Assembly: GCF_001644665.1 (NCBI RefSeq)
Contig: NZ_CP011393.1
Span: 1,200,001-1,264,000, forward strand
Length of the DNA: 64,000 nucleotides
Direction: 5' to 3'
Source: Fervidobacterium pennivorans
GTDB taxonomy: Bacteria; Thermotogota; Thermotogae; Thermotogales; Fervidobacteriaceae
This document shows, one piece after another, positions 35,591 through 50,082 of the stretch. Position numbers and translations under genes: made by a program. The notes below the pieces were generated by a model. It ran no database searches, was not told the origin of the DNA, and saw nothing but the letters and a program-made list of their open reading frames with translations. Numbering within the stretch: the stretch's first letter is position 1; each line of letters begins with the position of its first letter.

Positions 35591-35606
35591 AATAAAAAAC
35601 AAATAA

Positions 35607-35768
35607 CCACATCCCACATAGTGTATGGGAACGCCGGTGCAAATCCGGGGCTGCCCAGCAACCGTGAGTGGGGACGAAATCCGCATAAAAGCCACTGGCT
35701 CAGGTTTTTGAGCTGGGAAGGCGCGGAGAGTAGGATGATCCACGAGCCGGGAGACCGACTATGTGGGA
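35607..35768 (+). promoter_or_regulatory. Cobalamin riboswitch
   Basis: The outer stem is formed by CCCACATAGT (from 35613) and ACTATGTGGG (to 35767). Inside are the conserved elements GCCGGTGCAAATCCGG, GCTGCCC followed by AACCGTGAG, and the B12 box region AGCCGGGAGACCG. Binding of adenosylcobalamin should turn off the cob genes through the terminator that follows. Confidence 0.95.
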
Positions 35769-35772
35769 ATCA

Positions 35773-35810
35773 ATTCCCGACAGCTCGGGCTGTTTGGGAA
35801 ATTTTTTCTT
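35773..35810 (+). terminator. Riboswitch-controlled terminator (expression platform)
   Basis: TTCCCGACAGC pairs with GCTGTTTGGGAA (one bulge) across TCGG, followed by TTTTTT, 30 bases before cobT. Confidence 0.85.
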
Positions 35811-35841: not shown

Positions 35842-36885
35842 ATGGAAAAAGGAATGTTTGAAAACGTTTTGAAAGACAGTATCATGAGACGTCTGAACAA
35901 TTTGACAAAACCTATTGGTAGCCTTGGATACTTGGAAAAAATCGCTTTGAAGATGGGACTAATCCAGAACAAAGTAATACCAGACCTTCCGAAGGTTAAA
36001 AGAATTTATGTTTTTGCTGCCGACCATGGTGTGGTAGAACAGGGGGTTTCTGCTTATCCAAAACAAGTTACATACCAAATGGTTCTGAATTTTCTTAACG
36101 GCGGTGCGGCCATAAACGTATTTGGTAGACATGTTGGAGCGGATGTTTACGTGGTTGATGCCGGAGTCGATGGAGACTTTGAATTCACACATCCAAATTT
36201 AATCAATGCAAAAATTGGTTATGGTACAGCCGATTTTACAAAAGGTCCTGCAATGACAAGAACGCAAGCAATTGAGTGTATTGAAAAAGGAAAAGAGATA
36301 GCGAAGAAAGCGATAGAAGAAGGTACAGACCTTCTTGTTTTAGGTGATATGGGGATTGGTAATACTACAACTGCAACGGCTATTTCTGTAGCATTTGGAT
36401 TTGATATAGACGAGATTCTGGACATAGGTACTCCTATCGATAACGATACATTAGAAAGAAAGCGTCAAGCTGTAGAAAAAGCTATAGAAATAAATAAACC
36501 CAATGCCGATGATCCTATTGATGTACTCGAGAAAGTCGGAGGTTTTTGTATTGGTCAGATGGCAGGATTTATAATTGAGGCAACAAGCAGACATATTCCG
36601 GTCGTCGTAGATGGTTTTCCGACAACTGCAGCACTTTTGCTAGCTTGGAAGCTTGAACCTAGTGTGCTTGATTTTGTTTTCGCTGGTCACAAATCTAAGG
36701 TGAAAGGGCACAAGGTTTTACTTGATGCTATGAACCTTAGACCAATTCTTGACTTAGATATGAGGCTTGGAGAAGGAACTGGTGGAGCTTTGGCAATTTC
36801 TATTATAGAAGCGGCAATAAAGATGATACGAGAAATGGCGACATTCGACGATGCGGGTGTATCGAAAGGAAGTGATTCAGTTTGA
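35842..36885 (+). CDS. cobT: Nicotinate-nucleotide-dimethylbenzimidazole phosphoribosyltransferase
   Basis: 347 residues. CobT activates the lower-ligand base (dimethylbenzimidazole or a relative) to its alpha-ribotide. Visible family segments: RRLNNLTKPIGSLGYLEKIA, YVFAADHGVVEQGVSAYPKQVT, FLNGGAAINVFGRHVGADVYVVDAGVDGDF, LVLGDMGIGNTTTATAI, and the catalytic-end LRPILDLDMRLGEGTGGALA, with Glu in GEGTGG. First gene of the riboswitch-controlled operon; ATG with AAGGGGGG upstream; its stop overlaps cobU. Confidence 0.96.
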   Translation: MEKGMFENVLKDSIMRRLNNLTKPIGSLGYLEKIALKMGLIQNKVIPDLPKVKRIYVFAADHGVVEQGVSAYPKQVTYQMVLNFLNGGAAINVFGRHVGADVYVVDAGVDGDFEFTHPNLINAKIGYGTADFTKGPAMTRTQAIECIEKGKEIAKKAIEEGTDLLVLGDMGIGNTTTATAISVAFGFDIDEILDIGTPIDNDTLERKRQAVEKAIEINKPNADDPIDVLEKVGGFCIGQMAGFIIEATSRHIPVVVDGFPTTAALLLAWKLEPSVLDFVFAGHKSKVKGHKVLLDAMNLRPILDLDMRLGEGTGGALAISIIEAAIKMIREMATFDDAGVSKGSDSV

Positions 36886-37379
36886 TACTTATAACTGGTG
36901 GAATGAAATCAGGTAAGAGTACGTTTGCACTAAACATGGCTTTAAAATACACCAAACGAGCTTTTCTAGCAACTGGTGTTCCGTTTGATGAAGAAATGAG
37001 GTTGAGAATAGAAAAGCATAAAGCGGAAAGAAAGGAGCTTTTCGATACTTTCGAAGAACCTGTCAATGTGACGGAAGTTCTCAAAAATATAGATAACAAC
37101 TACGATGTTATCCTTTTTGAATGCCTTACAACCTACCTTGGCAACCTTTATTATTATCGACTTGATGTTCAGGAGCGTATTGATGGGCTCGTTGATGTTC
37201 TAAGCAATATGAGTAGTGATGTTATCGTAGTCACCAATGAAGTTGGTTGGGGAATTATACCTGAGAATCCAATAGCCAGGCAGTATGCCGAAATACTTGG
37301 AAAAACTAATACGCGACTAGCTAAGCTCGCAAAAGAAGTTTATCTTGTTGTCTCCGGAATAGGAGTGCGTATTAAATGA
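36882..37379 (+). CDS. cobU: Adenosylcobinamide kinase / guanylyltransferase
   Basis: 165 residues. The P-loop ITGGMKSGKSTFA and the segments RAFLATGVPFDEEMRLRIEKHKAER, VILFECLTTYLGNLYY and VVTNEVGWGIIPENPIARQYAEILGKTN match CobU. The enzyme phosphorylates adenosylcobinamide and adds GMP. The His in KHKAER is the guanylylated residue in the family. It starts at TTG 36882, overlapping cobT by four bases, and overlaps the next gene, so translation is coupled. Confidence 0.94.
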   Translation: MILITGGMKSGKSTFALNMALKYTKRAFLATGVPFDEEMRLRIEKHKAERKELFDTFEEPVNVTEVLKNIDNNYDVILFECLTTYLGNLYYYRLDVQERIDGLVDVLSNMSSDVIVVTNEVGWGIIPENPIARQYAEILGKTNTRLAKLAKEVYLVVSGIGVRIK

Positions 37380-38053
37380 GCCAACTATTAGGTACAACAT
37401 CTTGGGTCATACCTGGCACTTATTACGAAAACGTTGAGTATATAACTCGAAAGTTTCGTAACTTTGAATTCATTGAGCTACTTGTTTACACTTGGGATGA
37501 TGATACTTACAGGTTATTTGAGCAAGAAAAGGAGCATTTACGCAAAATTGCACTCGAAAGACAAATTAAATATACTGTCCATCTTCCAACAGATAACATT
37601 ACGAACGTTTTAAATGCATTTAAATACCTTGAGATGAACTTGGATATAGTAAATTATGTGCTACATCCTTTTGAAGATTGCACGGAAAAGGATAAGAAAT
37701 TATTCCGCGCTCTTTTGTCACATCCAAAGATTTCTATTGAAAATCTAAAAGAACGAGTATTTAATCATTTACGAACAGTCTTTGACGTAGGGCACCATAT
37801 TCTAGGAGCCAAAGTGGAAAACAGCTTCATTGATAACATTGTCGAAATCCATATGATGGGCGTTATTGAGGGAAAAGACCACCAAAAACTTGATTTGGAA
37901 ACACTTGACAAAGTTTACCAAATACTTTCAGGTAGGCTTTTCACGGTGGAGTATCTTTGTTTTGAAATATTTGATGAAGACGAATTGGAGCAGTCCTTAG
38001 AATTGTGGGAGGAATTCAAAGACAAAATTTATAACACTGGGAGCATTGAATAA
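37376..38053 (+). CDS. cbiR: CbiR-like cobamide amidohydrolase (cobamide remodelling)
   Basis: 225 residues, TIM-barrel-like. Segments such as YTVHLPTDN, YVLHPFED, ISIENLKERV, TVFDVGHH and EIHMMGVIEGKDHQKL follow the pattern of metal-dependent AP-endonuclease/sugar-isomerase barrels, with His, Glu and Asp near strand ends. CbiR, described in Akkermansia and present in Thermotogae, hydrolyses cobamides to cobyric acid so that a new lower ligand can be attached. Position among cobU and cobS supports this. It overlaps cobU by four bases. A sugar-isomerase role is the alternative, but the context argues against it. Confidence 0.75.
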   Translation: MSQLLGTTSWVIPGTYYENVEYITRKFRNFEFIELLVYTWDDDTYRLFEQEKEHLRKIALERQIKYTVHLPTDNITNVLNAFKYLEMNLDIVNYVLHPFEDCTEKDKKLFRALLSHPKISIENLKERVFNHLRTVFDVGHHILGAKVENSFIDNIVEIHMMGVIEGKDHQKLDLETLDKVYQILSGRLFTVEYLCFEIFDEDELEQSLELWEEFKDKIYNTGSIE

Positions 38054-38054
38054 C

Positions 38055-38804
38055 ATGTGGAAAGAAGTCCTTACTGACTTTTTACTTACTTTATCATTTA
38101 TCTCAAGGCTACCTGTCAAGATTAAAAATATTGACGAATGGGAAAAAAGAATAAAACGAATTCCCGTATATTTTCCCGTGATTGGATACATCCCTGGTAC
38201 TATTTATTCCATTGGAGTTTTATTGGCTCATTCCTTGAGTAATTACAAATTGCTTTTCATTTTCGGAGCGATGGCTATTGGATACTATTTCTTTGACCTC
38301 TTCCATTTCGATGGTCTTCTTGATATGTTCGACGGCTTTTTAAACCAGTCAAACAAAGAACGTAGACTTGAGATAATGTCCAAAGGTAATGTTGGACCAT
38401 TCGCTGTCTTTTATGGCATGCTCTACATCTTGCTCTTTTACCAACTCATGTCAACACTAAACTGGCAAGCATTCCTTTTTGCCTCTGTTTTTGGAAGATA
38501 TGAAATGGCACTTTTGCTCACCTTTTCGAAACCTGCCAAACCAAAAGGATTGGGTGCTATGCTCTTTCCATACAACAAGCGATACACAGCATGTTCGATG
38601 ATTTTCCTGATACCGTTACTTTTCATTAGCCCGCTAATGTTTTTTATTTCTCTCGCTTTAACCATAACCACGGCATACTTAATCTCCAGAGTTTCGGAAA
38701 TTAAAATCGGTGGAATCACAGGTGATGTGCTTGGTGGGAGTTGTTTAATATCCCAAATGGTAGTCTTATTAGCATTTTATATATTCCATGCCTTTGGAAG
38801 GTGA
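38055..38804 (+). CDS. cobS: Adenosylcobinamide-GDP ribazoletransferase (cobalamin synthase)
   Basis: 249 residues, polytopic. The family motif FHFDGLLDMFDGFLNQSNKERRLEIMSKGNVGPF is complete. CobS joins adenosylcobinamide-GDP to alpha-ribazole (phosphate). ATG 38055 is preferred; TTG 38046, overlapping the cbiR stop, is possible. N-terminal LSFISRLPV is also typical. Confidence 0.95.
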   Translation: MWKEVLTDFLLTLSFISRLPVKIKNIDEWEKRIKRIPVYFPVIGYIPGTIYSIGVLLAHSLSNYKLLFIFGAMAIGYYFFDLFHFDGLLDMFDGFLNQSNKERRLEIMSKGNVGPFAVFYGMLYILLFYQLMSTLNWQAFLFASVFGRYEMALLLTFSKPAKPKGLGAMLFPYNKRYTACSMIFLIPLLFISPLMFFISLALTITTAYLISRVSEIKIGGITGDVLGGSCLISQMVVLLAFYIFHAFGR

Positions 38805-38808
38805 GAAG

Positions 38809-39648
38809 ATGTATTTAATGGTTGCAGGTACAATGTCGAACGTTGGAAAATCAACGTTAGTAATGGCTTTGTGCAGATACTTTACAAGAAAAGGTCTAAA
38901 CGTAGCACCTTTCAAATCCCAAAATATGTCAAGAAAGTTTATCAACATCCAAAACGGGAAAGGGAAAATAGCGATAGCCCAGTATGTTCAAGCAATTGCA
39001 TGCGAAAAAGAACCTACCATGGAATTCAATCCGATATTGATAGTCCCAAAAGAAGGAAAAACACAGGTTTATTTCATGGGTGAATTCATCGACTACTTAA
39101 CATCTGAGCGTTACATGTTTGATTCAAAAGAAAAATTGTTTGCGCAAATCAGAGACATGCTTGAGAAATTGTCGAAAAACCATGATTTAGTAATCATCGA
39201 AGGAGCAGGTGCGTTCGTTGAACCGAACCTCAAAGACTCAGAGATAGTAAACCTTCGAGTTGCAAAGAGTGTTGGTGCGCAAGTTATTCTTGTTTCGGAC
39301 ATCTCAAGGGGTGGAGCATTCGCACAAGTTGCAGGTACCATCGAACTGATGGATAACAAAGAACAAAAACTTTTAAAGGGCTTTGTATTCACCAAATTCC
39401 ATGGTGACAAATCACTTCTGAAAGACGCCCCACAAATACTTGCTAAAAGATATTCCATCGAATATCTTGGAACAGTACCTTACTTTGAAAACAAAATTCC
39501 AGACGAAGATTTATTGACCAAAAAAGAAGGGGAAATCGCTTTGAATGATAAAGCGCAAATTATCAAAGAAATCGATAGAATAACAGACTTCATTATTGAA
39601 CATATCGACATCTCGAAAATTGAACGCATCATTTCTGAAGGGATGTAA
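38809..39648 (+). CDS. Cobyric acid synthase-like protein lacking the glutaminase domain
   Basis: 279 residues, against about 480-500 for normal CobQ/CbiP. The N-terminal synthetase domain is intact: P-loop VAGTMSNVGKSTLVMAL, APFKSQNMSRKF, AQYVQAIACEKEPTMEFNPILIVP, VIIEGAGAFVEPNL and VSDISRGGAFAQVAGT. The sequence stops after it; no class-I glutamine amidotransferase (with its Cys and HGxF motifs) follows, because cbiB starts seven bases later. It may use free ammonia, recruit another glutaminase, or have changed function. ATG 38809 has GGAAGGTGAG upstream. Confidence 0.85.
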   Translation: MYLMVAGTMSNVGKSTLVMALCRYFTRKGLNVAPFKSQNMSRKFINIQNGKGKIAIAQYVQAIACEKEPTMEFNPILIVPKEGKTQVYFMGEFIDYLTSERYMFDSKEKLFAQIRDMLEKLSKNHDLVIIEGAGAFVEPNLKDSEIVNLRVAKSVGAQVILVSDISRGGAFAQVAGTIELMDNKEQKLLKGFVFTKFHGDKSLLKDAPQILAKRYSIEYLGTVPYFENKIPDEDLLTKKEGEIALNDKAQIIKEIDRITDFIIEHIDISKIERIISEGM

Positions 39649-39654
39649 AAATAA

Positions 39655-40572
39655 ATGTTGGATACAATTTTTCTTTCCGGAGAGCTTTTTGCTTTACTTT
39701 TTGCCATAGTATACGATTTACTTTTCGGTGAATACCCTTCTCAAATTCACCCTGTTGTTTACATGGGATTCGTTGGTAAATGGCTTGACAAAAAACTCAA
39801 CAAACCTGAAAAAAGTAACTTCCTTAGGTTTATTTTTGGCATGATAGCGCAGACTATTGAAATTGTGCTTTTTCTGGAGATAAGCTTATCACTCATGGTT
39901 ATATCAAAAAGTGACAACAAAATTTCGCGAATCTTAGGTTTTTTGGGTTCAATTTACTTGTTAAAATCTACATTTTCTATCCGAAGCTTGTATGAGCATG
40001 TTGCAAGATGTTACACAGATGACGTAGAACTCTTGAGGAAGAACGTTTCGCTTATTGTTTCTCGGGATGTATCAAAGCTTGATAAAGCTCACCTTTACTC
40101 TGCTGCAATAGAGAGCTTGGCAGAGAACATCTCAGATAGCATAACCGGTCCGTTGCTTTATTATTCGCTCTTTGGACTTCCCGGTGCAGTTATCTACAGG
40201 GTAGTCAACACTTACGATGCGCTCTTTGGCTATAGGAATGAGAAATACGAGTGGTTTGGAAAATTTTCAGCAAGGTTCGATGATTTATTAAACATCGTAC
40301 CTTCAAGGGTTACGGCTTTTGTGATTTCACTCTTCAATCCTATCAGTTCCTGGAAATACATCTTAAAATACGGAGCAATAAAGATTAACGCGATGTATCC
40401 GATGAGTGCTTTTGCGGGAGTCTTAAAGGTGGGGATTGAAAAAATAGGATACTACAAACTTGAGGGAAAAATACCAGAAAAGGAAGATGTTAAAAAAGCA
40501 CTTAAATTGTATAAAAAGGTCACTGCGATTATCTTACTCATAATAATAACACTAACGGTGGTGGTGAAATGA
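39655..40572 (+). CDS. cbiB: Adenosylcobinamide-phosphate synthase
   Basis: 305 residues, membrane protein. Family segments: YDLLFGEYPSQIHPVVYMGFVGKWLDKKLN at the start, LYSAAIESLAENISDSITGPLLYYSLFGLPGAVIYRVVNTYDALFGYRNEKYEWFGKFSARFDDLLNIVPSR. CbiB joins cobyric acid to aminopropanol (phosphate), the step expected after CbiR. The ATG follows the short CbiP-like gene directly. Confidence 0.95.
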   Translation: MLDTIFLSGELFALLFAIVYDLLFGEYPSQIHPVVYMGFVGKWLDKKLNKPEKSNFLRFIFGMIAQTIEIVLFLEISLSLMVISKSDNKISRILGFLGSIYLLKSTFSIRSLYEHVARCYTDDVELLRKNVSLIVSRDVSKLDKAHLYSAAIESLAENISDSITGPLLYYSLFGLPGAVIYRVVNTYDALFGYRNEKYEWFGKFSARFDDLLNIVPSRVTAFVISLFNPISSWKYILKYGAIKINAMYPMSAFAGVLKVGIEKIGYYKLEGKIPEKEDVKKALKLYKKVTAIILLIIITLTVVVK

Positions 40573-40573
40573 A

Positions 40574-41623
40574 TTGAAAGGCGCAAATAACTTTCGCAAG
40601 TTTCATGGCGGTATAAAAGATGAAGATGTCTTAGATTTCTCAATTTCTGTGAACCCGTTTGTTCCTGGATTTATACTTCAAGTGCTGAGGAAGAAACTAC
40701 AAAACCTAAAAAGATACACATACATTGAATGGGTTGAAGAGCTGTTCAGAAAATACTTTGGAAGCAACTATGTAATCGTTGGTGGTGCAACCGAGGCGTT
40801 CCATATACTTGGTTGGACATTGATGGAAGACGCACATGTGATAATCCCTACTCCGAATTACACGGAATACGAAAGAGTTGCAACATTCAAAGCAAAGGAG
40901 ATTATAAAAGTTAATTACGTTGAAGCAAAAGAAATTGAGCTTGATATTTTAAAAAATGTTTTAGAAACTACAGCAACTAAATTAAAAAAGCACAAGAAAA
41001 TAGTTGTGATTACAGGAAACCCGAACAACCCGACAGGTATATACAAAGATTACTCTACTTTGCTCGATTGGTCACTAAACAGATATGGAACCGATGTAAT
41101 ATTTATTATCGACGAAGCGTTCATAGACTTTGTGCCCGAAAAAATGAGAATAGAATTGGATGAAAAGATATATCCGAACTTAATTTTAGTCCGAAGTTTC
41201 ACGAAAATTCTGGGATTGCCAGGTGTGAGGGTTGGATATGTGAAATCATCACAGTTTAAAGGATTATTTGAGAAATACCGAATGCCGTGGGCGATAGGCG
41301 GAGATGGATATACTCTTTTGGAAGCGATAGTGGAAAATAAACAAAACTACGAATACTTTGTGAGACAAACTCAACAATATTTTGCTGAGCAAAGAGAAAG
41401 ATTTTCTGAATTTATTTATTACCCATCACTCACAAATTACATCGTTGCCAAAGTAGGTGATGTGAAAAAATTCATCGCCAAGCTGAACAAAGAACGCATG
41501 CACGCAAGGGAGATGTTCGATTTTGGAATAAATGATAGTGTCAGAATTGGACTTAAAAAGCCAGAAGATAACGAAAAGATGTTGGATTTTCTTATACTTT
41601 GGACAAAGGAGATGAAAGGATGA
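40574..41623 (+). CDS. cobD: Aminotransferase-fold PLP enzyme, probable threonine-phosphate decarboxylase
   Basis: 349 residues. An early HGG (KFHGGIKDEDVLDFSISVNPF) is typical of CobD/CobC. Other class-I features: NPNNPTGIYKDY, FIIDEAFIDFVPE and the PLP lysine in VRSFTKILGLPGVRVGY. CobD makes (R)-1-amino-2-propanol phosphate for CbiB. Histidinol-phosphate aminotransferase is the close alternative, but the operon favours CobD. The TTG start at 40574 lies two bases after the cbiB stop, with GGTGGTG upstream. Confidence 0.82.
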   Translation: MKGANNFRKFHGGIKDEDVLDFSISVNPFVPGFILQVLRKKLQNLKRYTYIEWVEELFRKYFGSNYVIVGGATEAFHILGWTLMEDAHVIIPTPNYTEYERVATFKAKEIIKVNYVEAKEIELDILKNVLETTATKLKKHKKIVVITGNPNNPTGIYKDYSTLLDWSLNRYGTDVIFIIDEAFIDFVPEKMRIELDEKIYPNLILVRSFTKILGLPGVRVGYVKSSQFKGLFEKYRMPWAIGGDGYTLLEAIVENKQNYEYFVRQTQQYFAEQRERFSEFIYYPSLTNYIVAKVGDVKKFIAKLNKERMHAREMFDFGINDSVRIGLKKPEDNEKMLDFLILWTKEMKG

Positions 41624-42156
41624 ATAAATCTGTAGAACCAGACCAAAAAGGCTATATCCACGTTTACACAGGTAATGGTAAGGGAAAAACAACAGCAGCT
41701 TTCGGTTTAGCGTTGAGAGCGGTGTGCGCGGGTAAGAAAGTGTACATCGGGCAGTTTATAAAAGGCATGAAATACAGTGAACTCGATGCACCGAAATACC
41801 TGCCAAATTTGGTAATTGAACAATACGGACGAGATTGCTTTATTTTTAACTCACCTACCGAAGAAGATATCAGATTGGCAAAGCAGGGACTTGAAAAGAT
41901 AGCACAAATTATCTTTTCTGGCGAATACGACGTAGTCGTTATGGACGAAGTGAACGTTGCAGTTTACTACAAACTCTTCCAGCCAGCAGATGTGGTAGAA
42001 ATTTTGAAAAACAAACCTGAACACGTAGAGGTCATTTTAACAGGAAGATATGCGCCACAGGAGTTTATAGACATTGCAGATTTAGTGACCGAAATGAGAG
42101 AAATCAAGCATTATTACCAAAAAGGTGTTCTCGCAAGGGAAGGGATTGAATATTGA
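41620..42156 (+). CDS. cobA: Cob(I)alamin adenosyltransferase (CobA/BtuR type)
   Basis: 178 residues. P-loop-like YTGNGKGKTTAAFGLALRA, FIKGMKYSEL, VVMDEVNVAVYYKL, VEVILTGRYAPQEFIDIADLVTEM and the closing KHYYQKGVLAREGIEY match CobA/CobO. It puts the adenosyl group on corrinoids. ATG 41620 has GGAGATG upstream; it overlaps the cobD stop. Last gene of the cobamide operon; no clear terminator follows. Confidence 0.95.
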   Translation: MNKSVEPDQKGYIHVYTGNGKGKTTAAFGLALRAVCAGKKVYIGQFIKGMKYSELDAPKYLPNLVIEQYGRDCFIFNSPTEEDIRLAKQGLEKIAQIIFSGEYDVVVMDEVNVAVYYKLFQPADVVEILKNKPEHVEVILTGRYAPQEFIDIADLVTEMREIKHYYQKGVLAREGIEY

Positions 42157-42450: not shown

Positions 42451-42530
42451 TTTGAGATTACATACAGCAAACATTACCTCTTGTTTTCAAATCTTCATGT
42501 GGAAGGAAAGAAACAAACAAATGATTTATG

Positions 42531-42539
42531 TGCTATAAT
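42531..42539 (+). promoter_or_regulatory. Extended -10 element before the DpnII-type system
   Basis: TGCTATAAT (42531-42539) fits the extended -10 consensus, 45 bases before the methyltransferase start. No good -35. Confidence 0.55.
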
Positions 42540-42584
42540 TTGAATAAGACAGTTGTACAGGTACTGTTCAAAGGAAGGGAACGT

Positions 42585-43565
42585 ATGAGTAAGTTAACTA
42601 TGATTAATTTTTTCCAAGATGAAATATTAAATTTCCCAAAAGCAAAGCCTTTTCTGAAATGGGCTGGCGGGAAGTCGCAGCTTATCGAGGAACTAGAAAA
42701 ACGGCTTCCACAGCCGATATTGAGAAGCAAAACGATAGATGTATATGTTGAACCTTTTGTTGGTGGAGGAGCCTTTTTCTTCTACTTGAAAAGTAACTAC
42801 ATAATCAAAAAGGCGTATCTTTTTGATATAAACAAAGACCTTGTAATAGCATACAAAGTGGTGCAAATTTCTCCTCAAGCACTGGTAGAGCAACTCTATT
42901 CAATTGAAAAGAAATATTTTTCATTGTCGGAGAATGAACAGAAAAAGTTTTACTATGAGATTAGGGATTTGTACAATATGCAGAAGAAAGAATTCGATTT
43001 TTCGAATTTTAACGAAGACTGGATAGTTCGTGCAGCCTATATGATTTTTTTAAATAAGACGTGTTACAACGGTCTTTACAGACTGAATAAAAACGGAGAA
43101 TTTAACGTACCGTACGGAAAATACAAAAATCCGAAGATATGTGATGAAGAAAATCTTTTCGAAGTAAGTAAGGCTTTGCAAAACACGGAAATTATTTGTG
43201 CCGATTTTGAAGAAAGTAAAAGATATATTTCTAAAGGAACACTTGTATATCTTGACCCTCCATACAGACCACTTTCGAAAACTTCAAACTTTACGAGTTA
43301 TACAGAAGATGGATTTAGCGACGAAGACCAGATAAGACTTGCTAAGTATTTTAGAGAAATACACGAGCGAGGGGCTTATATCTTATTGAGTAATTCCGAC
43401 CCGAAAAATTTTGACCCAAAGGATGATTTCTTTGAAAAACTTTATGAAGGCTTTATTATAGAAAGAGTTCCTGCCAAAAGATTTATAAACAGTGATGCCA
43501 GAGGCAGAGGTTCTATAATGGAATTAATAATACGAAATTATGAAGGTGGAATGGAAAATGGATAG
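42585..43565 (+). CDS. DNA adenine methyltransferase, Dam/DpnM type
   Basis: 326 residues, D12 class N6-adenine methyltransferase. SAM motif I is FLKWAGGKSQLIEELEKRLP (about 21-40) followed by YVEPFVGGGAFFFYL; catalytic motif IV is YLDPPYRPLSKTSNFTSYTEDGF. FLNKTCYNGLYRLNKNGEFNVPYGKY is the target-recognition segment shared by GATC-specific enzymes. It should protect GATC sites from the DpnII-type nuclease encoded next. ATG 42585 has AAGGAAGGGA upstream. Its stop overlaps the nuclease start. Confidence 0.93.
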   Translation: MSKLTMINFFQDEILNFPKAKPFLKWAGGKSQLIEELEKRLPQPILRSKTIDVYVEPFVGGGAFFFYLKSNYIIKKAYLFDINKDLVIAYKVVQISPQALVEQLYSIEKKYFSLSENEQKKFYYEIRDLYNMQKKEFDFSNFNEDWIVRAAYMIFLNKTCYNGLYRLNKNGEFNVPYGKYKNPKICDEENLFEVSKALQNTEIICADFEESKRYISKGTLVYLDPPYRPLSKTSNFTSYTEDGFSDEDQIRLAKYFREIHERGAYILLSNSDPKNFDPKDDFFEKLYEGFIIERVPAKRFINSDARGRGSIMELIIRNYEGGMENG

Positions 43566-44496
43566 TACATATCTGCACATTCTACAAAAGAAAGGGCTAA
43601 AGGTTTCAAATACGGAAGACCTAATGAAAATCTTTTTAGACACACTTCTTGAAACGAACAAAACATACGACTTTTTCGTAGATTGGAAGAAAGTCAGAAC
43701 TTTTGTCGAAAAAAACAAAGTGGAGATAAATATACTCAACTCGTTGCTCCACTCAGAGGACTTTGATAACGAACTGAGACGAATTCTTAGAAAATATCCT
43801 GAGGTTCTCAAGGTTGTTCCTTTATTACTGGCAATTCGTGACAATTCCGTTTCAATAATTTCAGAATTTGATCTGGAAAAAACGAACGTTATTAAACTTG
43901 ATTTCACAGAACGCAATTTAAGAGAAGAGGAGATTGAGATTTTTGTAGACTTCTTTAAGAAGACGGGGCTGAAAGATTTTTTCCTTAATGTTGCTGATAA
44001 AAGTTTGCTTGACTATATCCTGGGTGTTGAAGTCGGTATGGATACAAATGCAAGAAAAAATAGAAGTGGCAAAGTTTTAGAAAACTTCCTTAAACCAATT
44101 ATTGAAAAAATTGCCAATGATCTAAAGTGTACTTTCCTTACGCAAGAGAAATTCTCCACTCTTGAAAAATACAGCATAAATATTAACAAACTCAAAGACA
44201 GAAAGGCGGATTTCATACTGTTAAAGCCCAGAGGAGATGGCTCATATGGAGTCGTAAACATCGAGGTTAATTTTTACAACGTTTCAGGTTCGAAACCGCA
44301 GGAGATTATAGACTCATACATTGAAAGACAAAAGGAACTGAAAGAATACGGCTATGAGTTCTTACTCATAACAGATGGTCCTGCTTGGAAAGAGCAAAAA
44401 AGCCAGCTGACCAAAGCTTTGGAGAACTTAGACTTTGTTTTGAATACTTATTTAGTTCGTCTTGGGATTTTGGAGGAAGTTATATGCATGATTTAA
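43558..44496 (+). CDS. Type II restriction endonuclease, DpnII family (predicted GATC)
   Basis: 312 residues. The segment LGVEVGMDTNARKNRSGKVLENFL and the later RKADFILLKPRGDGSYGVVNIEVNFYNVSGSKPQEII are characteristic of DpnII/MboI-type nucleases; D...ExN in ADFILL/NIEVNFYN is the modified PD-(D/E)XK site. It is predicted to cut unmethylated GATC. ATG 43558 is chosen (GGTGG eight bases upstream), overlapping the methyltransferase gene by eight bases, a common device to limit nuclease synthesis. Confidence 0.9.
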   Translation: MDSTYLHILQKKGLKVSNTEDLMKIFLDTLLETNKTYDFFVDWKKVRTFVEKNKVEINILNSLLHSEDFDNELRRILRKYPEVLKVVPLLLAIRDNSVSIISEFDLEKTNVIKLDFTERNLREEEIEIFVDFFKKTGLKDFFLNVADKSLLDYILGVEVGMDTNARKNRSGKVLENFLKPIIEKIANDLKCTFLTQEKFSTLEKYSININKLKDRKADFILLKPRGDGSYGVVNIEVNFYNVSGSKPQEIIDSYIERQKELKEYGYEFLLITDGPAWKEQKSQLTKALENLDFVLNTYLVRLGILEEVICMI

Positions 44497-45320
44497 ACGT
44501 AGAGTTCGATTTCAAACCGGAAATAACAACCGTATGGTCTTTTCCTGAACGTGGAAAATGGAGCACACATAAAGGTACATACAGAGGTAACTTTGCACCT
44601 CAAGTTGCTAGAAATCTTCTACTAAGATATACAAAAGAAGGAGATGTTATTTTGGACCCTATGATGGGTAGCGGCACAACATTAATTGAAGCAAAATTGC
44701 TGAAGAGGAGAGCAATAGGTATAGACATAAATCCCACCAGTGTAGAACTTACAAAACGTAATCTTTCATTCAACTGTCCCAATTCTTATGAACCTGAAGT
44801 TTTTATCGGTGATGCTCGGGATTTAAGTTTTATCGAAGATGAAACCGTTGATTTTGTTTTGTTACATCCGCCATATTTGAATATTATCAAGTACTCAGAA
44901 GGAAATATCAATGGTGATCTATCCAATATATCCGATGTTAAAAGATTCTGTACAGAGTTAGAAAAAGTTATTATTGAGCTTTTCAGAGTGTTAAAGCCTG
45001 GGAAGTTTTGTTCTGTTCTCATCGGTGATACAAGAAAAAATGGGCATTATGTACCACTTTCTTACTACGTTTTAACTTTATTTTTAAAAAACGGTTTTGT
45101 CTTGAAGGAAGAAATAATAAAGATACAACATAACTGTACCTCTACTCCTTATTGGCGAAAGAAAGTTTCCGAAAATAACTTTTATTTGATAATGCACGAA
45201 CATTTGTTTGTTTTCAAAAAACCTGAGCTCGGTGAAAACGTTTCGAAGATCAAATATAGTGCAGGGGGTTTTGTTGATCTTCTTTTGAAATACCGGTACA
45301 CAAAGAATAATAACGGATAA
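44484..45320 (+). CDS. Second DNA methyltransferase of the DpnII-type set
   Basis: 278 residues. Motif I DPMMGSGTTLIEAKLLKRRAIGIDIN (about 53-78) precedes motif IV LLHPPYLNIIKYSEGN (about 130). HPPY in place of (D/N/S)PPY is unusual but occurs in some amino-methyltransferases. ATG 44484 with GGAGGAAG upstream; it overlaps the nuclease gene by 13 bases, so it belongs to the same operon. In DpnII of Streptococcus the second methylase modifies single-stranded DNA; this protein has a different motif order from DpnA, so that role is only a possibility. Whether it methylates adenine or cytosine is not shown. Confidence 0.82.
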   Translation: MHDLNVEFDFKPEITTVWSFPERGKWSTHKGTYRGNFAPQVARNLLLRYTKEGDVILDPMMGSGTTLIEAKLLKRRAIGIDINPTSVELTKRNLSFNCPNSYEPEVFIGDARDLSFIEDETVDFVLLHPPYLNIIKYSEGNINGDLSNISDVKRFCTELEKVIIELFRVLKPGKFCSVLIGDTRKNGHYVPLSYYVLTLFLKNGFVLKEEIIKIQHNCTSTPYWRKKVSENNFYLIMHEHLFVFKKPELGENVSKIKYSAGGFVDLLLKYRYTKNNNG

Positions 45321-45396: not shown

Positions 45397-48300
45397 ATGA
45401 ATAACTCTGATGAGGAGTTAAAAAAAGCCATCCGTGTTGTCCAAATAATAGCATCCGAAAAAGGTGGAGAAAAACCATTTGGTATTTTTAGCAAACCAAC
45501 GTTAGATTATTTTAGAATCGCAAAGGATTTACTAAAAACTTACGGCGAGCTAAAAGTTGTTGGCAAAGAGTCAGCTCAGTTTGATGCCAAAATAATCATA
45601 CAAGCTGAAGAAAAAAATAACAGAATCGATGGGACAGTGACATTCGAAAAAGAAGAGAACAGCTGGAGTTCAAAATTCACAATAGACCTATCCACGAAGT
45701 CAAAAGAGCAACTGCATACGTTCGAGTTTGAGGCAATTGTTCTGGAAATACTATCCTTCATAAAAGGAAGCGATATACTTTTTGCAGTTTTAAAAGAAAA
45801 GGACCTCAACAGAAAGAAAGCAGCAGTAAAAGCCATTGGAAATTTGAGTGACCCAAAATTTATCACTGCCTTGGTTGAAATCCTCCAAAACTCTCCCTCT
45901 GATTTGAAAAAGCTAATCATAGAAACGCTTGGAAAAATGAAGGACCCAAAGGTGGTTTCTCCGATAGCTCTATCTTTGAGAGATGTTGACCCTGTTGTGC
46001 GTGCATCTGCCAAAGTTGCGCTTTTTAACGCACTTCGTTCAGGGCTTCCTATTGATGAAACTGTGCTCTTCTTGTTAGAAGATAAAGATGCGGGAATTCG
46101 GTCCGCGATTGTTGATATTCTTGCAAATGTAAGCAATGAAAAGATTGTTGAAGCTTTGCTCAAGGCGTTAAACGATGAAAATCCTAATATTCGACTGCGG
46201 TCTGTACAAGCGTTGGAGAAAATAAAGGACCAACGAGCTATTGGACCTCTTTCGAAACTATTGATGGACAAAGATGTTGGAATTAGACTTGCTGTGGTTC
46301 AGGCGATAGGAAGTATTGGACATGAAAAAGCTGTTGAATACCTTTCGATGGCTTTGAAAGATAGCGAGTGGAGAGTTAGAAAAGCTCTTGCCAAGGCTCT
46401 TGGAAACACAAATGATCCCTCGGCTACGCCATACCTTGTCGAGTTGCTCAGGGATGAATCACCTGATGTGAGGAAAGCCGCGGTCGAAGCACTGCAGATT
46501 GTTGGTGACGAAACTTCTGTTCCTGCACTTATTGAAGCGCTCAGTGATGGAGATTCCTGGGTAAGAATGACAGCCGCAGAGACGCTTGGACGGTTGGGAA
46601 GTTTGGAATCTGTTGAAAACCTTATTGAATTACTTCAGGACCCATCTGCAAACGTTAGAAAGACAGCACTAGAAGCTCTCGGGAAAATAGGTGACAACAG
46701 AGCCTTAGAACCTATTTTACAAAGGCTCAAAGATGATATTGCAAGCGTTCGAGAGGCTGCCGCAGAGGCTCTCGGAAAACTGCGCGATAGCCGAGCTTTG
46801 GAACCGCTCATTGAAATTTTGGAAAATCCAACAGAAGAGTACTCAGTTAAAGAAGCAGCGATAAGAGCTCTTGGGAATATAAGGGATTTTGAGTCAGTTG
46901 ATGCGATTGTAAGTATGATGAACGATGAAAACCCAAATATCCGCAAAGCAGCTGTTGAAGCTCTTGGAAAAATTGGTGATATTAGGACTTTGAATTTGTT
47001 GATTAATACAGCTATTGATTATGAAGAAGAACATTCGGTAAGAAAAGCTGCAGTACTTGCATTGGGTCAATTGGGTGATGAACGTTCAGTTGAAACTCTT
47101 ATCAAACTTTTAGATGACAGCGATCCAGAACTAAGGAAATCGGCGGCTTTTGCACTCGGAGAGATTGGAAGTTCCCAGGCTGTTGATTCCCTTGTTAAAA
47201 AATTCGAAGACGAAAACATTGCTGTGAAATTAGCAGCTATCGAAGCAACGGGAAAAATAAAAGACAAAAAATGTATAGATAATCTTGTCGCTACACTGAA
47301 AAGTAATCAGCCAGAAGTGAGAAAAGCTGCAATCCAAGCACTTGGGCAGATAGGTGATGAGGTTGCAATCACGTTCATTATCGAGGCATTGAATGACCCA
47401 TTCGTTGACGTTAGGAAAACTGCAGCCGAGGCTCTAGGATTAATGAGAAGTAAAAAAGCTGTAGGTTCACTCTTGGAAGCGCTGAAAGACAAAGATAAAG
47501 GTGTGAGGATGGCCGTTGTCGATGCTCTAAGCAAAATTGGAGACTCAAGAGTCCTTCAAGAATTACTAGTCTTAACAATTGAAGGCAAAGATGACGGCGC
47601 AGGATACAAAAAAGGTGAAGCCCGGCAGGAAGGAGTGACAAGCGTTGAAGGACTCATGAGTGCTTTCTCGTCAGTCTTTGGACCGGAAGCAACAAAAATG
47701 CAGGCAGAGCCTTCCAAGAATGAAGGAGCGTTTAAGGAAGAAGACGCAGAAATCTTAATACGAATGGCTAGTGATAATAGATTAGATGAAGACTTACGTC
47801 AGCGAGCTATTTTTGTGCTTGGTGAGATGAAAACACCTAAAGCAATAGAAACATTAACGGAGCTACTGAAAGAAAAAAATCAATCTCTAAGAGAGTTAGC
47901 AGCCCAAGCCTTAGGAAAGATAAAAGCGCAAACTGCTTTAAAGCACCTGGGGGCTATGTTAAATGATAAAGCACCTGAAGTAAAAAAAGCAGCAATTTGG
48001 GCAATAGGAGAAATCGGAGGTATGAACGCAATAGAACACTTAAGGCGTGCTTTGAAAGATAGCGATTTTGTTGTACGTGAAGCTGCCGTTAAAGCACTTG
48101 GGGTTGTTGGAAAAGCGAACATTCATGAAGCTTACGAACTACTTGCCGAAGCCCTGAAAGATGAAGATTACCGCGTAAGAAATAGTGCAAAGATAGAACT
48201 TCAGCTTGCTGCAAAGTCAGGTTTTCCTTTAACTGATGTGTTGATCCAACTCCTAAAAGACAAAAACCTTTCCGTAAGGCTTGCAGCGGCAGAAATTCTT

Positions 48301-50082
48301 GCTTTTTCACAAGATTCAAGGGCAGTTGACGCACTTATCGAAGCTCTAAAAAGTGAAGATACTGCGATTCGTAAAATGACGGTTGAATCACTTGGCAAGA
48401 TTGCGCATCCAAAAGCGGTTGGGGAATTGTCAAAGCTGGTAAAAGACAAAGACTTAAGTGTGCGTTTGGCATTAGTTAAAGCATTAGGAAATATATATGA
48501 CGAAAGTACAATTGCCCCTCTAATACAAATGCTAGACGACCAAAGTGACGAAATCAAATTGTTGGCACTCCAGGCACTTGGAAAATATCAAAATGAACAA
48601 TCAATAAATGCTATTGGGAATTTATTGAAAGACAAAAATGTAGAAATACGGTTAGCAGCTGTGCAAGCACTTGACACGATAGGAAAGAAAGAAGCTTTGC
48701 GCTTTTTGCTTACAGCCATAAATGACGAAGATTGGAGAGTTCGAAAAGCCGCTGTTGAGGCTGTAAAAAATGTAGGCGAAAAAGAGAAAATAGAAGACTC
48801 GAGAATAATAACAGAAGTCATTAAACTACTCAAAGATCAGAGTTCGGCAGTAAGAAAAGCCGCAGCTGAAGCACTTTACACAATAGGTGATTCTCAAACT
48901 CCTGGACTTTTGGAAGCATTACTCGAGACCTTGAATGATGAAGATTCGTGGGTGAGGTTGGCGAGTGTTCAAGCACTTGGAAAATTTGGTGGATGGTCAA
49001 TTGTTGACCAATTAATAAAAACGTTGAGAGATCCAGCTTCCTACGTAAGAAGAGCTGCTGCTGAAGTGCTAGGAAAGATAGGTGATTCAAGCACAGTAAA
49101 TGCTTTGTTAGAAGTTCTAAAAGATAAAGATTGGAAAGTTCGTAAAACAGTTGTGGAAGCACTCGGGATGATAGGTGACGAGACGGTAGTCGATGTCCTT
49201 GTGGATATGCTTAACGATGAAAGTTCGGAAGTTAAAATAGCCGTGTTGGAGGTGCTTGAAAAATTAGCTGATGCTAGTGTTCTTGATAAATTTGAAGCAG
49301 CCATTAACGACAAAGATACTGAGGTAAGAAAAAAAGCAGTTGAGGTAATTTGGAAAATAGGCACTCCAAAGTCGGTTGACTTACTAATTAAGGCTTTAAA
49401 AGATGAAGACTTAGAAGTTAGATTTAAAGCCCAAGAAGGGTTGCTCCGTGTTTGTGATTTCAGTGTGCTTGAAAAAATAGAAAAACTTCTCAAAGATGAT
49501 GATCCAAACGTAAGGTGGTTGGCGGTGCAAGCGCTAAAGAAAATTGGTGGGGGATCTGTGCTCAAACCATTGATGGAAGCAGTAAACGACAATGTTTTCA
49601 GCGTCAGGTGGTTCGCAATTGAAGCACTTGGAGAAATTGGAAACCAAAAAGCAATACCGGTTCTGTCAAAATTCTTGGCGGACAGAGACTACACAATACG
49701 CCGGTCAGCGGCAGAAGCAATAGGAAGAATTGGTGGTCAAGAGGCATACAATGTCTTAAGTGAATCATTAAGCGACAAAAATCCAGAAATAAGGGAAGCA
49801 GCTGTTTGGGGAATATCAAAGTTGACAACGCACGAGCCAGAAAAAGCCATAGAACTTCTCATCAGAATGATTGACGACACAAGCCCGAATGTTAAAAGAG
49901 CAGCTGCACAAGTTCTTGCAGGTTTTAGAAACAGAAAAGCTTTGGAGGTTGTTATTGAAAAACTTAGAACTGAAGACCAAAATACAAAAAAGATAATATC
50001 CGAAGTGCTTGAAGAAACCACAGGAAAGAAATTCGGCCTGGAATATGAAATATGGAAAAAGTGGTTAGAGGAAAACCTATGA
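45397..50082 (+). CDS. Giant HEAT-repeat protein
   Basis: 1561 residues, no signal peptide or membrane segment. After an N-terminal domain of about 125 residues, the protein consists of some 45 HEAT (PBS-lyase type) repeats of about 31 residues, each close to VRKAAVEALGKIGD...AVEPLIEALKDED. A non-repeat acidic linker (about residues 729-788, with SSVFGPEATKMQAEPSKNEG) divides it into two solenoids. Such solenoids bind proteins or nucleic acids; no catalytic motif is seen. The ATG has AAAGGAGCTGAC upstream and lies 76 bp after the DpnII-type operon on the same strand, with no terminator between. Co-transcription with the restriction genes is therefore possible. Confidence 0.9.
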   Translation: MNNSDEELKKAIRVVQIIASEKGGEKPFGIFSKPTLDYFRIAKDLLKTYGELKVVGKESAQFDAKIIIQAEEKNNRIDGTVTFEKEENSWSSKFTIDLSTKSKEQLHTFEFEAIVLEILSFIKGSDILFAVLKEKDLNRKKAAVKAIGNLSDPKFITALVEILQNSPSDLKKLIIETLGKMKDPKVVSPIALSLRDVDPVVRASAKVALFNALRSGLPIDETVLFLLEDKDAGIRSAIVDILANVSNEKIVEALLKALNDENPNIRLRSVQALEKIKDQRAIGPLSKLLMDKDVGIRLAVVQAIGSIGHEKAVEYLSMALKDSEWRVRKALAKALGNTNDPSATPYLVELLRDESPDVRKAAVEALQIVGDETSVPALIEALSDGDSWVRMTAAETLGRLGSLESVENLIELLQDPSANVRKTALEALGKIGDNRALEPILQRLKDDIASVREAAAEALGKLRDSRALEPLIEILENPTEEYSVKEAAIRALGNIRDFESVDAIVSMMNDENPNIRKAAVEALGKIGDIRTLNLLINTAIDYEEEHSVRKAAVLALGQLGDERSVETLIKLLDDSDPELRKSAAFALGEIGSSQAVDSLVKKFEDENIAVKLAAIEATGKIKDKKCIDNLVATLKSNQPEVRKAAIQALGQIGDEVAITFIIEALNDPFVDVRKTAAEALGLMRSKKAVGSLLEALKDKDKGVRMAVVDALSKIGDSRVLQELLVLTIEGKDDGAGYKKGEARQEGVTSVEGLMSAFSSVFGPEATKMQAEPSKNEGAFKEEDAEILIRMASDNRLDEDLRQRAIFVLGEMKTPKAIETLTELLKEKNQSLRELAAQALGKIKAQTALKHLGAMLNDKAPEVKKAAIWAIGEIGGMNAIEHLRRALKDSDFVVREAAVKALGVVGKANIHEAYELLAEALKDEDYRVRNSAKIELQLAAKSGFPLTDVLIQLLKDKNLSVRLAAAEILAFSQDSRAVDALIEALKSEDTAIRKMTVESLGKIAHPKAVGELSKLVKDKDLSVRLALVKALGNIYDESTIAPLIQMLDDQSDEIKLLALQALGKYQNEQSINAIGNLLKDKNVEIRLAAVQALDTIGKKEALRFLLTAINDEDWRVRKAAVEAVKNVGEKEKIEDSRIITEVIKLLKDQSSAVRKAAAEALYTIGDSQTPGLLEALLETLNDEDSWVRLASVQALGKFGGWSIVDQLIKTLRDPASYVRRAAAEVLGKIGDSSTVNALLEVLKDKDWKVRKTVVEALGMIGDETVVDVLVDMLNDESSEVKIAVLEVLEKLADASVLDKFEAAINDKDTEVRKKAVEVIWKIGTPKSVDLLIKALKDEDLEVRFKAQEGLLRVCDFSVLEKIEKLLKDDDPNVRWLAVQALKKIGGGSVLKPLMEAVNDNVFSVRWFAIEALGEIGNQKAIPVLSKFLADRDYTIRRSAAEAIGRIGGQEAYNVLSESLSDKNPEIREAAVWGISKLTTHEPEKAIELLIRMIDDTSPNVKRAAAQVLAGFRNRKALEVVIEKLRTEDQNTKKIISEVLEETTGKKFGLEYEIWKKWLEENL

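Follow-up and report, generated by a model that had tools for sequence, protein, structure and literature searches.

A short CobQ in a cobalamin operon

What can a cobyric acid synthase (CobQ/CbiP) do once its glutaminase domain is gone? The question is raised by a gene of the heat-loving bacterium Fervidobacterium pennivorans, whose genome is a single contig of 2.06 Mb. The window, i.e. the whole stretch of 64,000 nucleotides that was analysed (G000:C1:1200001-1264000), carries a densely packed operon with the order cobalamin riboswitch, cobT, cobU, cbiR, cobS, short cobQ, cbiB, cobD-like gene, cobA. With CbiR present and cobT, cobU and cobS adjoining, it is a CbiR-initiated cobamide remodelling operon. 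Its features, in window coordinates, are:

35602..35777, + strand, cobalamin riboswitch at the operon head (Rfam RF00174, 98 bits, E 9.5e-24)
35842..36885, + strand, cobT, nicotinate-nucleotide:DMB phosphoribosyltransferase (TIGR03160, 424.7 bits)
36882..37379, + strand, cobU, cobinamide kinase / guanylyltransferase (NF004469, 163.3 bits)
37376..38053, + strand, cbiR, cobamide remodelling phosphodiesterase (NF041277, 158.8 bits, cut-off 105)
38046..38804, + strand, cobS, cobalamin-5'-phosphate synthase (PF02654, 149.9 bits)
38809..39648, + strand, cobQ short form, synthetase domain and C-terminal tail with the glutaminase domain excised (NF001989 and tail match)
38821..38853, + strand, cobQ P-loop region, residues 5-15, VAGTMSNVGKS (from the sequence)
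38932..38940, + strand, cobQ residues 42-44, RKF in place of LNS of full-length CobQ (from the alignment)
39568..39645, + strand, cobQ C-terminal tail, residues 254-279, homologous to the end of full-length CobQ (tail HMM)
39655..40572, + strand, cbiB, adenosylcobinamide-phosphate synthase (TIGR00380, 259.2 bits)
40574..41623, + strand, cobD-like PLP enzyme, a relative of threonine-phosphate decarboxylase (NF006225, 364.6 bits; TIGR01140, 161.9 bits, under cut-off)
41599..42156, + strand, cobA/btuR, corrinoid adenosyltransferase (TIGR00708, 180.3 bits)

The short cobQ frame encodes 279 residues, and a ribosome-binding-like GGTGAG precedes its ATG at 38809. This ATG lies 4 bases beyond the cobS stop (38804), and cbiB (39655) begins 6 bases beyond the cobQ stop, so the gaps between these genes hold no leftover of a glutaminase frame. 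Downstream of the operon, a putative adenine methylase is followed by a possible restriction enzyme and another putative methylase (42528-45320), an arrangement resembling a restriction-modification locus, and a 1561-residue protein with, by appearance, HEAT-like repeats is encoded at 45397-50082.

Residues 2-257 of the short protein matched the cobyric acid synthase model NF001989 with 282.9 bits (cut-off 273), while the full-length model TIGR00313 gave 240.2 bits, below its cut-off of 309.9. Profile search of the protein yielded no match to GATase_3, the class I glutaminase domain with its Cys and His. The first-pass annotation had described a missing glutaminase half, retained ATP and substrate motifs and tight packing, and all three are borne out: the protein still has its P-loop and most of the synthetase motifs, and G7, T8, S10, G13 and K14 of the P-loop are invariant across all aligned short and full forms. 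Its description of a protein reduced to the synthetase domain stands for the loss of the glutaminase but not for the rest, a C-terminal helical tail being still present. AlphaFold2 models were confident for the short form (pLDDT 88.3) and for a full-length CobQ (pLDDT 91.2), and both end in two helices. The closest solved folds of the short form are dethiobiotin synthetases (1dbs, E 2e-8); a search of solved structures by sequence, with the short protein as sole query, found nothing.

The same short gene occupies the same operon slot in three further genomes, G070, G068 and G069 (99, 66 and 61% identity). Comparison with G068 gave pN/pS 0.20/0.75, similar to cobS, cbiR and cbiB, with synonymous sites near saturation; these values indicate that purifying selection is acting on short cobQ. 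A sequencing or contig artefact is rejected on the same grounds.

The glutaminase domain was lost from inside the protein

A tail profile was built from 132 full-length proteins, each represented by its final 60 residues. By this profile every short form has the tail (36/36, median 24 bits). The highest score among 1,080 shuffled tails was 12.4 bits, which 33 of the 36 exceeded, those of L105, L113 and G076 falling below. The tail of the window protein reached 29.2 bits and best matched residues 438-460 of the 462 residues of the G077 protein. Left free to align anywhere, the short tails tested were placed at the extreme C-terminus of full-length proteins; Fervidobacterium-type tails are most like those of G077-G080, their nearest full-length relatives. 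For the weakest tails (G067, L248, L105), pairwise scores barely exceeded those of shuffles and the evidence is the profile.

Since the tail is retained, the glutaminase domain was lost from inside the protein; simple C-terminal truncation is ruled out. Subtraction of protein lengths between relatives puts the removed stretch at about 185 to 225 residues. In G077 and G080, a full-length cobQ stands precisely where the short form stands here, with cobS before it and cbiB after it.

Short forms arose repeatedly

Our survey of the phylum covered 103 Thermotogota genomes. CobQ was present in 28 of them (in G003 as a fragment only; a G047 match in a 46-residue frame was left out of this count), CbiB in 30 and CbiC in 8, and 20 of the 28 CobQ-bearing genomes are without CbiC. 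Short forms occur in G000, G067, G068, G069, G070, G075 and G076, every one without CbiC. Beyond the phylum they were found in Nitrosopumilus-type archaea, in Bacillales (G111, G112, G123, G215, G242, G408) and in Bacillota metagenome-assembled genomes (L052, L105). The homologue search suggested by the first-pass annotation thus recovered not an isolated truncation but a form recurring in seven clades, namely three in Thermotogota, one in Nitrosopumilus-type archaea, one in Bacillales and two in other Bacillota. This is a real, recurrent, glutaminase-excised CobQ variant.

In a tree of the synthetase domain, short forms fell at seven places, four of them forced by well-supported branches; a larger tree with motif columns removed again gave seven places, five of them forced. 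Because the rows for G067 and L052 are long or of uncertain position in these trees, seven is the best count and five the safer one. The window group nests inside the family and clusters with Thermosipho-like full-length CobQ (support 99/99 and 100/98). A single origin of the short forms is rejected by both trees, which point to independent loss of the glutaminase in at least five lineages.

Two CobQ genes coexist in G076, a short one by the salvage operon (C5:20047-20853) and an isolated full-length one (C7:17520-18974). In G003, remnants of CobQ and CbiB share one open frame (C4 3550-4125), which looks like a product of decay or fusion.

L42 and N43 are lost in every short lineage

Among 135 full-length proteins, 42 columns were at least 95% invariant, and exactly two of them, L42 and N43, had changed in 7/7 short lineages. 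The number of columns expected by chance to change in all seven is about 4.7e-6, and even one such column appeared in only 2/200,000 random draws. N43 is found in 135/135 full-length proteins versus 1/36 short forms (L248), and L42 in 130/135 versus 0/36. The window protein has R and K at positions 42 and 43, and the SQNM-x-LNS motif of full-length CobQ is not intact. The Fervidobacterium lineage additionally lost E52, K78 and, in G000, N195, which several other short forms keep; its substrate range may therefore be narrower.

Because producers of the corrin ring that carry only the short form must make cobyric acid (see below), we infer that L42 and N43 serve glutaminase coupling or the ammonia path in CobQ rather than binding of the corrinoid substrate. 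The ammonia gate of CTP synthase consists of Pro54, His57 and Val60 (PMC9138612) and belongs to the segment that follows the second strand; LNS is found there in CobQ. Profile alignment of LNS with this gate gave a probability of 2.4%, which is unreliable, and the correspondence is a guess at the motif level.

Ammonia as the likely nitrogen donor

Two host proteins matched GATase_3, one of 192 residues beside PdxS and one of 219 residues in a purine cluster, which neighbourhood and length identify as PdxT and PurQ. This search found no committed glutaminase partner for short CobQ in the host genome, nor was a GatD-like partner gene found; a separate partner, the finding that would have spoken against the first-pass annotation, thus did not appear. 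In the Nitrosopumilus genomes examined, standalone glutaminase candidates adjoin PdxS and are likewise PdxT.

The ring-synthesis marker CbiC was present in 22/22 Nitrosopumilus-type genomes tested, where the short form was the only CobQ found with the CobQ model. G123 and G114 likewise combine CbiC with short CobQ as the sole CobQ found. N. maritimus, without metE, grows vitamin-free and in culture makes and releases cobalamin (PMC4303638, PMC8281238); the genomes scanned here are Nitrosopumilus-type. Short CobQ is therefore very probably a functional cobyric acid synthase in Nitrosopumilus-type archaea.

Single-domain NAD synthetases have been shown experimentally to use ammonia only (PMC3376133). 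The amidotransferase survey in the same paper names no other family without a glutaminase, CobQ not being among the families tabulated, and we found no description of a glutaminase-less CobQ in the literature searched, subscription journals lying mostly outside its scope. As the same loss occurred in at least five lineages, including marine, B12-making ammonia-oxidising archaea, the enzyme is probably ammonia-driven, in agreement with the nitrogen donor proposed in the first-pass annotation.

Role of the short CobQ in its pathway

The host has one tetrapyrrole methylase (RsmI by inference). CbiC was not found there, nor was CbiA at the threshold used, and the host appears unable to make the corrin ring. 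Jointly, CobA, CobQ, CbiB, CobD, CobU, CobT and CobS span the steps from cobyrinic acid a,c-diamide to adenosylcobalamin. The first-pass annotation had taken CbiR to yield cobyric acid, which is wrong: in Akkermansia, CbiR converts cobamides to cobinamide-phosphate and alpha-ribazole (PMC7733943). Since cobinamide-phosphate enters after CbiB, CobQ, CbiB and CobD constitute a separate entry route. Nor is the suggested tie between short CobQ and CbiR supported. CbiR is accompanied by full-length CobQ in G077 and G080, G063 has it without any CobQ, and in Bacillales the short forms stand beside CbiZ with no CbiR nearby.

We favour, with a probability of about 0.6, the reading that this cobQ encodes a cobyric acid synthase carrying an in-frame internal deletion of the glutaminase and dependent on ammonia, the latter being the best explanation of the recurrent loss. 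Activity, ammonia use and substrate are all predicted here from sequence. ATP would phosphorylate side-chain carboxylates of the corrinoid on short CobQ, and free ammonia, not derived from glutamine, would then amidate the activated carboxylates. In the host this step would follow CobA and precede CbiB/CobD. The operon would then provide every step to adenosylcobalamin, starting from cobyrinic acid a,c-diamide or under-amidated corrinoids that the cell imports, complete cobamides being fed in separately by CbiR at cobinamide-phosphate.

In salvage-only hosts the short form might instead have been repurposed to re-amidate the side chains of corrinoids that are damaged or incompletely amidated, such as the b, d or e acids that hydrolysis yields at high temperature, rather than carry out the full four-step amidation. 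The absence of ring synthesis and CbiA from the host, the retention of CobQ in salvage-only genomes (the 20 of 28 noted above) and the additional conserved residues lost in Fervidobacterium would fit such a role. However, the Cys and His of the glutaminase are intact in the full-length CobQs of salvage-only relatives, so that glutamine-driven amidation appears conserved there, and the short form is also the sole CobQ of de novo producers. We regard this alternative as unlikely, and a little more so its strict form, in which the glutaminase-less CobQ of salvage-only thermophiles would be a corrinoid repair ligase using free ammonia and no longer biosynthetic. That short CobQ draws ammonia from a glutaminase encoded elsewhere is quite improbable: other amidotransferases are often split into a synthetase and a glutaminase (PMC3376133, Table 1), but the GATase_3-like matches lead to PdxT and PurQ in the host and to PdxT in Nitrosopumilus, and LN is lost in every lineage, as expected without glutaminase docking.

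Assistance to CbiB, also raised in the first-pass annotation, would have short CobQ activate the f carboxylate with ATP for attachment of aminopropanol phosphate. The position of cbiB directly after cobQ, the presence of CobQ in 28 of the 30 CbiB-bearing Thermotogota and the order cobD-cobQ-cbiB in Nitrosopumilus could be read this way. The complete genome G063, however, lacks CobQ altogether; its operon is otherwise the same, includes cobD and has cobS followed immediately by cbiB, so the CobQ step is dispensable there. G408 has short CobQ with no CbiB detected. These two genomes weaken the proposal to the point of being very doubtful, and an obligate helper role is unlikely. Lowest of all we place a functionless, decaying remnant: absence from G063 and the fragment in G003 would be in keeping with decay, against which stand the pN/pS values, the conserved P-loop, an excision in frame with the tail kept, and retention of the gene in four related genomes.

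The salvage operon of G408 (L269 3800-11634) consists of CbiZ, CobU, short CobQ and CobS.

Comparison with known amidoligases

The short form shares with CobQ/CbiP (NF001989, TIGR00313) the synthetase domain, P-loop, C-terminal helical tail, gene neighbourhood and tree position; it differs in having neither the glutaminase domain nor L42-N43 of SQNM-x-LNS. Type N NadE, the single-domain NAD synthetase, is likewise an amidoligase without glutaminase domain or committed partner and with discriminating sequence motifs, but has an unrelated fold (N-type ATP pyrophosphatase, adenylation), and its short form has been proposed to be ancestral, whereas that of CobQ is derived by loss. BioD (dethiobiotin synthetase), the closest solved fold, is a P-loop ligase that also works without a glutaminase, on another substrate, with other chemistry and at 17% identity. 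CTP synthase (PyrG) also joins a P-loop synthetase to a class I glutaminase but, unlike short CobQ, is always glutaminase-fused in the survey (PMC3376133). Among solved structures, the nearest to the glutaminase domain of CobQ is GatD, which belongs to the two-subunit MurT/GatD.

If our preferred reading is correct, the last corrin amidations in marine B12 producers of the Nitrosopumilus type and several salvage bacteria would run on free ammonia instead of glutamine, tying B12 synthesis directly to ammonium supply, and CobQ would join NAD synthetase among the amidotransferase families in which glutaminase-free forms recur. About seven natural replicates would then point to L42 and N43 as the glutaminase-coupling element of CobQ, and annotation of the short genes as ordinary glutamine-hydrolysing CobQ would mislead. 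A repair ligase, for its part, would bring a novel enzyme function to B12 metabolism.

Two further observations concern amidation in related genomes. G078, G079, G080 and G074 have CbiC and no CbiA/CobB match at E 1e-20, leaving a,c-diamide amidation without an obvious enzyme. A gene of the B12 subgroup of DUF71/COG2102 (Dph6-like ammonia ligase) lies beside or near short CobQ in G067, G075, G076 and G069, and also in the CobQ-less operon of G063; its product may take part in the amidation. The positions of these genes are:

L152, 8356-9078, DUF71/COG2102 gene
L153, 2956-3591, DUF71/COG2102 gene
L154, 8879-9514, DUF71/COG2102 gene
L158, 11522-12163, DUF71/COG2102 gene
L194, 11261-11869, DUF71/COG2102 gene
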